Source: a virus
IMG/VR virus record: IMGVR_UViG_3300028025_000610
Span: 1 to 27,586 of that record
Direction: 5' to 3' (one strand)
DNA: 27,586 nt
The first letter of the stretch is position 1. The number at the start of each line of letters is the position of its first letter. The notes below the pieces were generated by a model, which saw nothing but the letters and a program-made list of their open reading frames with translations, made no database searches and was not told where the DNA came from. Of this stretch, positions 2,149 through 14,727 are shown piece by piece. The position numbers and the translations under genes are program-made.

Positions 2149-3807
2149 ATGGCAGATTTTTCAGTTACCCCTGTTGCACAAAACTTAAAACCACCCACAC
2201 CCATGACGTTGGGTGAAATGCTTAACTTTGCCAGTGGCGTACAACAATATAAACAAGCGCAACAATTGAACCCTTTGGCGGTTCAAAGAGCTGGCGCTGA
2301 ATTGCAAACACAGCAACAACAATTGCAAAATTTGCAACAAACTTACGAACAAGCGCAACAAATAAACCCTTTGGCAGTTCAAAAAGCAACGCAAGAAGCG
2401 CGAGTAGGTGAAATTGCATTAAGTGTTGATGAACAAAAAAACATTGAACGCACGAATATGCAAACGTTCTTTGCTGACCCAAATAATTTTCAAACCAATG
2501 GTCGAATTGATTTAGACAAGATTAATACTGCTGTTCCAAAAATTGCGCCTTTAACTGGCTCAGAATACATCAACAAATACACCACATTAGGAACAGCACA
2601 AACGCAAGCTATTGAGGCCAAACAAAAGCTAACCCAAGATCAACGAGCAATGATTGCTCAAAGATTTAGTATTTTGGGCAGAATGGGCGTTCAAGACAAA
2701 AATGCTTACATCAATGAAATGCAATTGATGAAAAAGGAAAACCCAAACAATCGTGATTTGCATGATTTGCTTGATGCCTACATGACCACATGGAATTCAG
2801 AGATGCAGTCTGGCCCTGATTTGCCCGAAAAAGCAATTGCAGGCGCGGCAACTTTAATGACTCCAGAACAACAACAAGCACAGTTTTCGACTAAAGCCGC
2901 AATGGATGCCCAAGGTCGAGTGTTGACAACAACCCAAAGCGTTACTGGCGGCAAACCAATTGTTGAAGTTAGTCTGCCTCAAGGTTTGCAACCCCAAACA
3001 CCACAAGGCACAAATGCACCGGGCGCGGCGGTTGGCGCGGCTGGTTCTGAAATTGCACCAAGCGTTAGATTGCCATACCCAGTTCGCAGGGCAGATCAGC
3101 CTTACACATTAATGCCAACTGAAGACAAAGACACAACAGCTGGATTTGATTACAGAAACAACTTAGTCAATGCCCAAAGTAATTTAGCTACAAAGCGCCG
3201 CAATGTTGAAGAAGTAATTAATCAGGCCAATAAAATTAGTGAATCGTTAGTCGTACCTAATTTTTTGGCTAAGTTTGGATTTGAAAAAGGTGGCGCACCA
3301 GAAAAAATGGAACGTGCTGTTCGTCAGTTTTTTGGAAGCGAACAATACGATTTACTTGCCAAAGACTTGGCAAAAATGGCAATTGACAATTCCCAAGCAA
3401 TGGGAAATGTTGGTGGAACTGTTGCTGGCTTGGATATGGCATCGGTTGCAAATGGCACGATCAAAGTCACGCCTGATGTGTTGGTAAAAATTGCCCGTAG
3501 GGTGCAAGCAGACCAAAGAAATCTTGATATGCAAGCAAGTGGCGCACAACAGTTTGGTCAAAAATTTGGCGACAATAACATGAAAGCATTTCAGCAAGCA
3601 TGGGGTGCAAATTCTAGAGATACCAAAATTTTTGAAGCCATGAATATTTTGGAAACAGAATCTGACCCTAAAAAAATGGAAAACAAATTTAAAGAATTAT
3701 TTCCATCTGAAAAAAAACGCAAAACAATTTTGAAGCAATACAAAAACTTAAAAAGTATGGCAGCTACTGGCTTGCCAGTAGAACCACTTGGCCCAGAGGA
3801 CTTTTAA
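2149..3807 (+). CDS. Ejection-type virion protein (P22 gp20-like by position)
   Basis: A 552-residue, Gln/Ala/Asn-rich protein with SD AAGGA before ATG 2149. Residues about 35-90 are coiled coil and contain a duplicated unit (AQQLNPLAVQ and AQQINPLAVQ). A helical region follows (90-230), then a Pro/Gly/Ala linker (about 270-310, ending near RLPYPVRRADQPYTLM) and a second helical domain with many lysines. There is no enzyme motif and no signal peptide. Size, Gln-rich helices and position between a gp7-like and a large gp16-like gene fit the internal ejection proteins of P22-type phages. The next ATG follows its TAA with no gap. Confidence 0.55.
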   Translation: MADFSVTPVAQNLKPPTPMTLGEMLNFASGVQQYKQAQQLNPLAVQRAGAELQTQQQQLQNLQQTYEQAQQINPLAVQKATQEARVGEIALSVDEQKNIERTNMQTFFADPNNFQTNGRIDLDKINTAVPKIAPLTGSEYINKYTTLGTAQTQAIEAKQKLTQDQRAMIAQRFSILGRMGVQDKNAYINEMQLMKKENPNNRDLHDLLDAYMTTWNSEMQSGPDLPEKAIAGAATLMTPEQQQAQFSTKAAMDAQGRVLTTTQSVTGGKPIVEVSLPQGLQPQTPQGTNAPGAAVGAAGSEIAPSVRLPYPVRRADQPYTLMPTEDKDTTAGFDYRNNLVNAQSNLATKRRNVEEVINQANKISESLVVPNFLAKFGFEKGGAPEKMERAVRQFFGSEQYDLLAKDLAKMAIDNSQAMGNVGGTVAGLDMASVANGTIKVTPDVLVKIARRVQADQRNLDMQASGAQQFGQKFGDNNMKAFQQAWGANSRDTKIFEAMNILETESDPKKMENKFKELFPSEKKRKTILKQYKNLKSMAATGLPVEPLGPEDF

Positions 3808-12746: not shown

Positions 12747-12911
12747 ATGACTAAACAAGAACTTATCAAACTCGCAGGTTCACAGAGTGAGCTTGCCAAG
12801 ATTTTGGGCATTTCCAAGCCAGCAATTTGCCAATGGAAAAATGTGCCAGAACTACGCCTGCGCCAGTTGAAAGACTTGCGCCCTGATTGGTTTACATTGG
12901 AGAAAACATGA
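12747..12911 (+). CDS. Cro-like helix-turn-helix repressor
   Basis: A 54-residue protein too short for most ORF cut-offs. It reads MTKQELIKLAGSQSELAKIL, then GISKPAICQWKNVPELRLRQ: the first helix of the helix-turn-helix is SQSELAKILG, the turn ISKPA and the recognition helix AICQWKN. The order and the Q-W-K motif are those of P22 Cro and YdaS-type regulators. It stands alone at the divergent control region, with operator-like palindromes upstream, and should repress the leftward operon and/or its own promoter. It ends in an ATGA overlap with the next small gene. Confidence 0.75.
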   Translation: MTKQELIKLAGSQSELAKILGISKPAICQWKNVPELRLRQLKDLRPDWFTLEKT

Positions 12912-13057
12912 AAAAAACACTTTTGGCAATTTGGTTTGCAGCATCCACCACAATGGTTTGGGCAGCTTGTTCGACCCATTCATATTATTCAAACGGTCGG
13001 TATGTGACTTGCCAAACTTGTTGCTATGGGAATAATTGCACGACCAATTGTTTTTGA
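12908..13057 (+). CDS. Exported cysteine-rich microprotein
   Basis: A 49-residue protein translated from the ATGA overlap with the Cro-like gene. It has a signal peptide (KK, then TLLAIWFAAS, cleavage expected after VWA at residue 19). The mature part of about 30 residues has six cysteines (21, 35, 38, 39, 44, 48) in the pattern C-x13-C-x2-C-C-x4-C-x3-C plus several Tyr, Asn and Thr. With W at -3, C21 is not a good lipobox cysteine, so a disulfide-rich periplasmic peptide is more likely than a lipoprotein. I recall similar short exported peptides but know no function. Coupling to the regulator suggests an early or lysogenic cell-surface role. Confidence 0.6.
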   Translation: MKKTLLAIWFAASTTMVWAACSTHSYYSNGRYVTCQTCCYGNNCTTNCF

Positions 13058-13065
13058 GTTATGAT
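13036..13065 (+). promoter_or_regulatory. Possible promoter for the structured RNA
   Basis: TATGAT (13060-13065) is a good -10; TTGCAC (13036-13041) with an 18-base spacer is a weak -35. It would start transcription near 13072, just before the first helix of the RNA element. If real, it makes a stand-alone transcript of about 108 bases. Confidence 0.35.
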
Positions 13066-13076
13066 TTGCAAAACGC

Positions 13077-13179
13077 TTGGCGGCGTTAATCGTAGTAGGG
13101 TTACACATGCTGTCTGCTGGTACTACGCCAGTCCGCCAACATCCGCAAGGATGAGACAGCAGGTGTAGCCCTTTTTTTT
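13077..13179 (+). ncRNA. Compact structured RNA / attenuator ending in a terminator
   Basis: Non-coding stretch with dense complementarity. TTGGCGG (13077-13083) pairs with CCGCCAA (13133-13139). CGTAGTA (13091-13097) pairs with TACTACG (13121-13127). GGGTTACAC-A-TGCTGTCT (13098-13115) pairs with AGACAGCA-G-GTGTAGCCC (13154-13171), which is 17 pairs with one mismatch, followed by eight T. A small hairpin CTGG/CCAG (13117-13131) would present TACTACG as its loop, and CATCC-GCAA-GGATG (13140-13153) is a GNRA-capped hairpin. Several elements abut exactly. The two first pairings cross the terminator stem, so they form either a pseudoknot or an alternative fold that competes with termination. It could be a stand-alone small RNA or a leader controlling the replication gene 11 bases downstream. 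Confidence 0.6.
13098..13179 (+). terminator. Long-stem intrinsic terminator before the replication gene
   Basis: The 17-pair stem formed by 13098-13115 and 13154-13171 is followed directly by T8. It lies between the cysteine-rich gene and the replication gene. Reading the replication gene from upstream promoters therefore needs readthrough, antitermination or a switch of RNA fold. Confidence 0.7.
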
Positions 13180-13189
13180 GGGCAAAAAA

Positions 13190-13906
13190 ATGAGAATCAA
13201 AAACTGGAACAAGTTTCAGCATTTCAAGGACAGGAAACCGCCTTGGGTCAAGCTGTATAGGGATTTGCTTGATGACATTGATTGGCATGAATTAGATGCC
13301 CAAGCCAGCAAAGTGCTTGTGATGTTATGGTTGATTGCAAGTGAAGAAGATGGAAACATCCCATCAACAAAAACACTTGCATTTCGTTTGAGAATGACAG
13401 AAAAGCAAACTATTGATTGCTTAAACAAGTTGTCTCATTGGCTGGAACAAGACGATATCAGCGTGATATCAGAACGATATCAAAGTGATGGTCTAGAGAC
13501 AGAGACAGAGACAAAGAAAGAGACAGAGAAGAAAGCCACTGTCGTGGCTACGCCTGTCGGCGTTTCACAATCTGTTTGGGATGACTTCAAAACCTTACGG
13601 AAAGCCAAGAAAGCACCAATTACCCAACGTGCCATTGATGGATTAATTGCGGAAGCAAACAAGGCAGGCTGGACATTGGAACAAGCATTGACTGAGTGCT
13701 GTGTGCGCGGTTGGCAGGCATTTAAAGCTGAATGGGTTGCTGACAAACCCAAGCTGGTCAACAGGTTTGATGTTGTGACCACCACAGTGCCATCACGAGT
13801 TGAACGTGACCCGGCATTGGTTAAGCTGGATGATGACAGCAAAAAGGTTGTGCCGCCAAGTGCTGAAATGCTTGAAAAATTCAAATTGCTGAGAGGGAGA
13901 AAATGA
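13190..13906 (+). CDS. Phage replication initiator-like protein
   Basis: A 238-residue protein from ATG 13190 (the TTG at 13178 lies in the terminator T-run and is rejected); no clear ribosome site is present. The N-terminal domain (about 1-95) begins MRIKNWNKFQHFKDRKPPWV and LYRDLLDDIDWHEL and is a winged-helix domain seen in phage O-type and DnaT-like replication proteins. A Glu/Thr/Lys linker (about 100-118) coincides with DNA repeats. The C-terminal helical domain (about 125-185, VWDDFKTLRKAKKAPITQRA, RGWQAFKAEWV) is familiar from the C-terminus of phage replication proteins. It probably binds an origin within its own gene and loads host helicase. Confidence 0.7.
   Translation: MRIKNWNKFQHFKDRKPPWVKLYRDLLDDIDWHELDAQASKVLVMLWLIASEEDGNIPSTKTLAFRLRMTEKQTIDCLNKLSHWLEQDDISVISERYQSDGLETETETKKETEKKATVVATPVGVSQSVWDDFKTLRKAKKAPITQRAIDGLIAEANKAGWTLEQALTECCVRGWQAFKAEWVADKPKLVNRFDVVTTTVPSRVERDPALVKLDDDSKKVVPPSAEMLEKFKLLRGRK
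13454..13482. repeat. Three GATATCA repeats, 11-bp phased; candidate replication origin iterons
   Basis: GATATCA occurs at 13454-13460, 13465-13471 and 13476-13482, a spacing of exactly 11 bp, about one helical turn. Because 11 is not a multiple of three the repeat is not produced by a protein repeat (residues are DISVISERYQS). They lie between the two domains of the replication gene, where lambda-type O genes carry ori iterons. Next to them are purine-rich AGAGAC repeats (13495-13512) and an AGA-rich tract to about 13535. Confidence 0.5.
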
Positions 13907-14727
13907 ATGAGCTGGCTTTATTCGCAGGCGCTGGTGGAGGAATACTTGGGGGAAAACTGCTTGGATGGAGAACAGTCTGTGCAGTCGAATGGGAAGCTTA
14001 CCCAGCTAGCGTATTGTGCGCCCGACAAAATGACGGAATTCTCCCGCCTTTCCCGATTTGGGATGATGTTCAAACCTTTGACGGAAAACCTTGGCGAGGA
14101 ATTGTTGATGTCGTATCTGGAGGATTTCCATGCCAAGACATCAGTGCCGCAGGAAAAGGCGCAGGAATTGATGGAGAACGATCAGGAATGTGGCGAGAAA
14201 TGGCGCGCATCATTTGTGAAGTACAACCCAGATTCGTGTTCGTGGAAAACTCACCAATGCTCACTTCTAGGGGACTTGGACGAGTTCTCGGAGACTTGGC
14301 CTCAATGGGGTTCGATGCGAAATGGGGAGTGCTGGGAGCAGCGGATGTTGGAGCAAATCATCAGAGGGACAGAATCTGGATTGTCGCCAAATGGCGTGGA
14401 CATCTTCCACACGCCCAACACAACAGGATTGGACGGTGGGAGCAACAGCAGACGAGCATTAAAGAAAAAATTGGAAAAATATCCAACTCCGAATACAGGA
14501 ATGTATCGAAATTTAAATTACAACAAGGAACTTTGCATCAAGAGAGCAGAAAAACATCAAACCGATTTAGCCATGATTTCGGTAATGAAATTTGGTGGTC
14601 AATTGAACCCGACGTGGGTAGAGTGGCTAATGGGGTGGCCGCTTCAGTGGACAGAATTAAAGCCATTGGAAATGGACAAGTCCCATTATGTGCAGCAACA
14701 GCATGGAGAATCCTAAGTGAATCATGA
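13903..14727 (+). CDS. DNA (cytosine-5)-methyltransferase, Dcm type
   Basis: A 274-residue protein starting on ATGA with the replication gene and sharing SD GGGAG. All main motifs are present: I (LFAGAGGGILGG, 6-17), IV (GGFPCQDIS with catalytic C77), VI (ENSP, 115-118), VIII (QRDRIWIVA, 154-162) and X (IGNGQVP, 255-261). The target-recognition part (about 165-235) is short and low-complexity. No restriction enzyme lies next to it, so it is an orphan enzyme that would protect phage DNA or act in regulation. Codon use is odd, with many GGA, CGA and AGA codons unlike the neighbours. The whole gene is read in a second frame as well. Confidence 0.85.
   Translation: MNELALFAGAGGGILGGKLLGWRTVCAVEWEAYPASVLCARQNDGILPPFPIWDDVQTFDGKPWRGIVDVVSGGFPCQDISAAGKGAGIDGERSGMWREMARIICEVQPRFVFVENSPMLTSRGLGRVLGDLASMGFDAKWGVLGAADVGANHQRDRIWIVAKWRGHLPHAQHNRIGRWEQQQTSIKEKIGKISNSEYRNVSKFKLQQGTLHQESRKTSNRFSHDFGNEIWWSIEPDVGRVANGVAASVDRIKAIGNGQVPLCAATAWRILSES
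13907..14716 (+). CDS. Second, fully overlapping long ORF in the Dcm gene (+1 frame)
   Basis: A 269-codon open frame from ATG 13907 (directly after the replication gene's TGA) to TAA 14716, inside the methyltransferase gene but in another frame. Its product has the features of a protein family I recognise from many phages near Dcm genes: MSWLYSQALVEEYLGENCLD, DKMTEFSRLSRFGMMFKPLT, SWKTHQCSLLGDLDEFSETW, HTPNTTG and YPTPNTG repeats, and LNPTWVEWLMGWPLQWTELK at the end. That N- and C-terminal signatures line up with methyltransferase motifs in the other frame suggests long-conserved dual coding. Function unknown; soluble, Trp-rich. Recognition is from memory, without a search. Confidence 0.6.
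   Translation: MSWLYSQALVEEYLGENCLDGEQSVQSNGKLTQLAYCAPDKMTEFSRLSRFGMMFKPLTENLGEELLMSYLEDFHAKTSVPQEKAQELMENDQECGEKWRASFVKYNPDSCSWKTHQCSLLGDLDEFSETWPQWGSMRNGECWEQRMLEQIIRGTESGLSPNGVDIFHTPNTTGLDGGSNSRRALKKKLEKYPTPNTGMYRNLNYNKELCIKRAEKHQTDLAMISVMKFGGQLNPTWVEWLMGWPLQWTELKPLEMDKSHYVQQQHGES

Follow-up and report, generated by a model that had tools for sequence, protein, structure and literature searches.

The window is the whole 27,586-base stretch of IMG/VR virus record IMGVR_UViG_3300028025_000610. A Cro-like regulator gene (12748..12912, plus strand; Pfam P22_Cro, E 1e-10) is overlapped at its end by ORF 12909-13058, which encodes a short, Cys-rich, secreted-looking peptide with features like those of a signal peptide (MKKTLLAIWFAASTTMVWAACSTHSYY...CCYGNNCTTNCF) and has relatives in many carrier phages. 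The segment from 13060 to 13190 consists of a -10 hexamer (TATGAT), an RNA of about 105-107 nt (13072-13179), a 10-nt gap and the ATG of a replication gene at 13190; an initial annotation had counted 11 bases between the T-run and this ATG. The replication gene (13190..13906, plus strand) encodes an O-like initiator by its similarity to PHROG 678 ('replication initiation O-like', E 5e-19) and PHROG 26426 ('replication protein', E 7e-16), and a Pfam search gave no match for it. Two long overlapping open frames, 13903-14727 and 13907-14716, cover the cytosine methyltransferase gene that comes next; the former matches Pfam DNA_methylase and the latter is open over 269 codons.

All parts of the RNA element are on the plus strand. 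A sigma-70-like promoter (13036..13065) combines TTGCAC at 13036-13041, an 18-nt spacer and TATGAT at 13060-13065, and places the predicted transcription start at about 13071-13073. The transcript begins with hairpin hp1 (13072..13087), formed by 13072-13076 with 13083-13087, whose loop TTGGCG belongs to strand A (TTGGCGG, 13077..13083). Strand B (CGTAGTA, 13091..13097) directly adjoins C, the 5' strand of the terminator stem (13098..13115). Hairpin hp2 (13117..13131) pairs CTGG at 13117-13120 with CCAG at 13128-13131 and presents B' (TACTACG, 13121..13127), the partner of B, as its loop. It is followed by A' (CCGCCAA, 13133..13139), the partner of A, by hairpin D (CATCC-GCAA-GGATG, 13140..13153), by C' (13154..13171), the 3' strand of the terminator stem, and by a run of eight U residues at the predicted 3' end (13172..13179). 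The G+C-rich stem spanning 13098-13171 and the T8 that follows it have the form of a strong intrinsic terminator, and the U-run is T6-T9 in 72/72 distinct copies and T8 in 52 of them. The initial annotation had described four complementarities (A/A', B/B', C/C' and D) that abut exactly at 13097/13098, 13139/13140 and 13153/13154, and both the pairings and the junctions are as it described. Its 18-base terminator strand pair does form a stem, although an imperfect one of 17 pairs and one A.G mismatch. Hairpins hp1 and hp2, which carry crossing strands A and B' in their loops, were absent from that annotation, and both covary. The single-sequence fold of the window RNA has an energy of -49.3 kcal/mol (z = -4.0), and 0/200 shuffled sequences were as stable.

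Two alignments were used for analysis of covariation. Alignment A1 contains 62 distinct homologues aligned with MAFFT and was not fitted to any structure. Alignment A2 contains 47 copies, including eight much more distant ones (L317, L409, L443, L369, L370, L214, L300 and the second copy in L153) that score 48-69 bits with a model containing neither crossing helix. In A1, 99.6% of the cells pair and double changes occur at 15/44 pairs; with the distant copies in A2, compensatory double changes are present in 35/44 base pairs. The two alignments lead to the same conclusion. Double changes are found in 4/5 pairs of hp1, 4/6 counted pairs of A/A' (100% of cells paired), 7/7 pairs of B/B', 4/4 pairs of hp2, 4/5 pairs of hairpin D, which varies in length, and, in the wide set, 12/17 pairs of the terminator stem C/C'. 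The covariation score is 0.393 versus 0.146 for shuffled alignments and at most 0.071 for slid controls, and the observed scores were reached by 0/500 shuffles. The helices A/A' and B/B', which had been noted to cross the terminator stem, covary by themselves, with double changes in 11/13 pairs and 98.9% of cells paired compared with no more than 4 pairs in sliding controls. A/A' occurs as TTGGCGG/CCGCCAA, TTGACGG/CCGTCAA, TTGGTCG/CGACCAA, TTGGAGG/CCTCCAA and TTGGCAG/CTGCCAA. A further variant, TTGCAGG/CCTGCAA, was aligned by eye in L368, a significant match to the broader model (57 bits) that is outside A2. The initial annotation had judged the packing of complementarities to be beyond chance and had looked to homologous phage loci for covariation; the fold statistics agree with that judgment, and the strong covariation in these loci, both crossing helices included, is decisive.

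The lengths of the fold are nearly fixed across copies, and the 18 positions of stem strand C are free of indels in the rows inspected. Sequence that is invariant in 47/47 rows of A2 gathers at the three-way junction as UCUG, UC ahead of A' and C...GAGA, with a junction core of U48-C49-U50-G51 / G102-A103-G104-A105 (A2 columns). In the main subfamily, pairing alone does not account for the invariance of the lower half of the terminator stem; the distant copies vary there, so this invariance reflects either recent relatedness or a contact specific to the subfamily. The RNA element is a real family, and its structure is supported as far as comparative sequence allows. In a subfamily (L366, L368, L369, L409 and L448), the stretch from the promoter to hp1 contains an additional conserved hairpin (ACGAATGAAARTTCG), and a TTGACT -35-like site is present upstream of the RNA.

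The RNA motif is carried by at least 119 stretches in a scan of viral contigs. A search with the replication protein, in which the RNA sequence was not used as a query, gave 80 virus loci, of which 79 were scored. The RNA lies directly before the replication gene in 48 of them and in L040, a contig-edge copy recognized by eye; it is one endonuclease gene upstream in 6 loci, and in 2 loci it again lies one gene upstream, while a second RNA type immediately precedes the replication gene. Counting L040, the RNA is thus directly before the gene or one gene upstream in 57/79 loci. Two divergent copies occur in L153 on opposite strands about 0.7 kb apart (2850-2958, minus; 3622-3726, plus). The named phages with the RNA are MW202462 and MW202544, both Manatee Spring records, and the sole annotation over the RNA in MW202462 is an antisense hypothetical protein. 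Among bacterial genomes, the RNA was found in one contig of a Betaproteobacteria MAG; with the broader model 2/300 genomes of the MAG's order matched, including the MAG itself, and in the second the RNA precedes a primosomal-type gene on a contig of 37 kb. No homologue of the RNA was detected among 72,556 plasmids. A search of the 4227 Rfam families returned no match at the gathering threshold, and under permissive settings no score rose above about 16 bits, which is chance level; the family is absent from Rfam release 15. No description of the RNA was found in the open-access literature, where absence is weak evidence. The carriers are probably a large group of freshwater phages that infect Burkholderiales, and the RNA is probably an unrecognized element at the head of phage early genes, either an RNA switch or a small RNA.

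The promoter is conserved together with the RNA. Of 41 upstream sequences with a mutual similarity below 60%, 38 carry TAnnnT at the promoter position; 8.8 would be expected, and no more than 16 occurred in any of 200 shuffles. For the same set the combined -35/-10 score is 8.3, against 5.9 for shuffled sequences (maximum 6.5). This comparative evidence backs the earlier proposal of a small RNA of about 105 nt with its own -10 at 13060. The genes upstream of the RNA are diverse and include several Cro types, genes for Cys-rich peptides and, by eye, HNH, MazG-like and RusA-like genes. The promoter sits in the tail of these different genes and is therefore part of the RNA module rather than of any one upstream gene.

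Downstream spacing was counted in 169 placements, duplicate contigs included, of which five end too soon to judge. In all judgeable placements but one (L155) an ATG begins no more than 14 nt past the U-run, with one ambiguous case of 0 nt, and the gap is 8-14 nt on the same strand in nearly all copies, whichever gene comes next. Clustering of the proteins encoded downstream gave about ten groups unrelated to one another, comprising several replication-initiator families, GIY-YIG-like and HNH endonucleases, ParB-like proteins and small unknown proteins. The initial annotation's placement of the RNA in front of the replication gene is correct for this virus, but the element also precedes other genes and is not specific to replication. 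Its remark that no ribosome site is visible agrees with a weak or absent Shine-Dalgarno sequence in most relatives, except that a canonical core is present in 3/49 distinct spacers; GGG is found in 33/49. The gap between terminator and gene is too short for a promoter, so the downstream gene is presumably expressed by read-through, which could start at the RNA's own promoter or farther upstream. ORF clustering of 51 loci identified no dedicated protein partner beyond replication and the usual recombination genes, and the one other common cluster is the antisense frame across the RNA and the beginning of the replication gene.

Homing-type endonuclease genes of several kinds (GIY-YIG-like and several HNH) lie directly after the RNA at a spacing of 8-17 nt in L001, L004, L014, L016, L017, L031, L116, L135, L214 and L317, and in some loci the endonuclease gene is between the RNA and the replication gene. 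This arrangement suggests that the module moves as a unit or is tolerated as one.

Related replication genes without this RNA mostly have another structured leader. RNA2 is a second, unrelated and widespread phage pseudoknot family that takes the same site in most of these loci, with the core GAAAC..GGCTA..GAAAAG..CTGCC..GTTTC (L205, L225, L211, L208, L031:4296-4390, L043:2796-2890 and others). Its own -10 (TAnnnT) is present in 35/35 distinct copies, and the ATG is 8-35 nt past the core. The RNA2 segment before CTGCC is complementary to the bases just past GTTTC, a pseudoknot partner, and more weakly to the ribosome-site region; the matched pairs beat 200/200 permutations in both pairings by a modest margin. 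RNA2, which has no Rfam match, looks like a translational switch. By eye, L024 and L064 have leaders of other sequence upstream of 5001 before related replication genes, and in each the loop of a 5' hairpin (GGACAA; GTGCGAG) can base-pair with the apical loop (TTGTCC; CTCGCAC) of a terminator hairpin. Because other structured leaders stand at the same gene, control at the level of the leader appears to be a common theme, and leader control of the replication gene looks general. This is the main reason to prefer a reading in which the RNA acts in cis. Replication-gene leaders may be a place at which one regulatory RNA is exchanged for another, and this element is placed where many phages probably decide the amount of replication protein.

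We lean toward the view that the element, promoter included, is a cis-acting attenuator module that yields a small RNA as a by-product. The sigma-70 promoter would start a transcript of about 105 nt that folds into a compact three-way-junction RNA, in which the loops of hp1 and hp2 would pair back to strands across the 18-position terminator stem. The transcript would end at the intrinsic U8 terminator, and expression of the early genes, the first of which is usually the replication initiator, would need read-through. The element would thereby set the amount of transcription that reaches the early genes, and the terminated product would likely accumulate as a stable small RNA. Sequence comparison shows that the fold with both crossing helices, the promoter sequence and the position are conserved, whereas transcription, termination, read-through and the regulation of read-through are inferred. 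The balance could be tipped by the order of folding during transcription, by a factor from host or phage, or by the small RNA itself. The layout is that of an attenuator: a promoter, a terminator in the leader, a gene directly behind it and no further promoter. Against this reading, a gene in a compact phage genome can directly follow a small-RNA gene with no regulatory reason. The observations in the initial annotation are confirmed, and its interpretation as a regulatory leader is backed in part.

Folding of transcript prefixes bears on the attenuator reading. At 70-90 nt, the lowest-energy fold is a helix of A/A' and B/B' with strand C in its loop, and from 95 nt onward the terminator together with hp1 and hp2 becomes the predicted fold (-48.7 kcal/mol at 105 nt). 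This change upon synthesis of C' is the order of events that an attenuator would need and favors that assignment. A and B' are also the loops of hp1 and hp2, which makes a kissing type of pairing between loop and strand possible while the terminator stands. In a coarse rigid A-form model, hp2 with B/B' fits beside C/C' without strain to about 16 bp and is marginal at 18; adding hp1 with A/A' leaves compatibility with the stem unchanged, and at most 1-2 pairs would be frayed. Mutual exclusion of pseudoknot and terminator is not strongly supported by this model. The crossing helices and the terminator can nearly coexist in it, so these helices do not have to act as an antiterminator and may simply make the RNA rigid. 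The RNA could be either one rigid object, with the foot of the terminator possibly strained, or a two-state switch. The tuning of an intrinsic terminator by tertiary structure becomes testable in this system.

A possible but rather unlikely alternative is a free-standing small RNA that acts in trans, the rigid pseudoknot binding either a protein, of host or phage origin, or another RNA, with the next gene incidental and the terminator serving only to end the RNA. Its own promoter and terminator, the almost fixed fold lengths with no indels seen in the stem, the junction core invariant in all 47 copies and the varied gene contexts are consistent with such a molecule. What argues against it is that a start codon follows in almost every copy, on the same strand and at a distance of 8-14 nt; moreover, a strong terminator in an early operon would starve the replication gene if there were no read-through, and no complementary target beyond chance length exists within the window. 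A more ambitious proposal gives the element a dual role, in which the terminator-built double pseudoknot attenuates the early or replication operon and also acts on it as a feedback small RNA. It would be a new RNA class, a sense-strand counterpart of plasmid antisense copy control and one of at least two unrelated pseudoknot families exchanged at this site; we regard this as unlikely and rather speculative. The feedback could take the form, recalling IsrK and P4 CI RNA, of terminated RNA acting in trans on a nascent or read-through leader of the same sequence, for example by pairing A of one molecule with A' of another, and would tune the operon with genome copy number. The RNA does contain self-complementary pairs of loop and strand, and published precedents include a phage small RNA whose transcripts extend into mRNA as well as termination under RNA control ahead of replication genes (PMC4825925); intramolecular pairing alone explains the covariation, however, and feedback of this form is improbable. 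It is very improbable that the feature works as DNA or in replication, as a primer transcript or an origin hairpin beside the initiator gene. A replication gene is near the element in 47/51 long loci, but some copies are directly before endonuclease or ParB-like genes, and G-U pairs are conserved in the stems (A1 columns 32-100 and 74-83), which points to RNA rather than single-stranded DNA. Chance complementarity, refuted by the covariation, and a coding origin in antisense ORF 12989-13288 or in a short ORF from the conserved ATG at 13107 have a negligible likelihood, since every frame is shifted by indels (1, 2 or more bases) within the linker, the hp2 loop and D, despite the antisense protein annotated in MW202462 and the AGGG upstream of the ATG in strand C. 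Both reading frames were rejected individually: the peptide encoded from the inner ATG is conserved in neither sequence nor length, being frame-shifted among copies and 12-35 codons long, and the antisense ORF is explained by conserved DNA.

The IsrK, P4 CI and IncI/IncL/M systems are published precedents for the logic, and none of them is shown to be a homologue by the sequence tests applied. In the HK022 put system, a nascent antitermination RNA renders polymerase resistant to downstream terminators. We know of no sequence relation between IsrK and this RNA, and of no double pseudoknot in IsrK. IsrK of Gifsy-1 has its own promoter, a Rho-independent terminator and partial read-through into downstream phage mRNA, and its action in trans is published (PMC4825925). 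The two are alike as phage RNAs with a promoter and a terminator in a layout compatible with a dual small and messenger RNA; IsrK differs in being a Salmonella prophage RNA before an anti-repressor gene. P4 CI RNA is likewise an element before phage replication genes and is described as controlling premature transcription termination ahead of them (PMC4825925). CI acts by antisense complementarity to seqA/seqC in the same operon, whereas here there is an intrinsic U8 terminator, and the longest antisense match of the RNA within the window is 11 nt (shuffled mean 10.45, maximum 13).

The loop of ColIb-P9 is a U-turn-type UUGGCG that pairs with CGCCAA, the same letters as in A/A' here. This resemblance is only a lead, and A/A' covaries away from those letters in the distant copies. 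In IncI and IncL/M plasmids a leader pseudoknot controls the replication genes (Asano and Mizobuchi 1998, cited in PMC10724649; PMC8125031), and the present RNA likewise places a pseudoknot in a replication-gene leader. The plasmid pseudoknot serves to activate translation, which an antisense RNA blocks, whereas the phage element has a built-in terminator and precedes an O-like initiator. A consensus scan, which weak promoters could escape, gave no promoter-like minus-strand site near 13070-13200, and the RNA had no match to such leaders in the 72,556 plasmids.

The phage c4 antisense RNAs (RF01695, PMC2864571) are also small, structured and phage-borne, but this RNA matches no Rfam family at either the gathering threshold or the permissive setting. 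In riboswitch-type terminators such as the crcB and pfl motifs, a conserved structured RNA overlaps a terminator before genes; the terminator is variable and the overlap partial (PMC2864571). Here no ligand logic is visible in the controlled genes, and the terminator stem itself belongs to the conserved core. A terminator stem locked in two pseudoknots is an unusual and very well supported architecture for an added RNA family.
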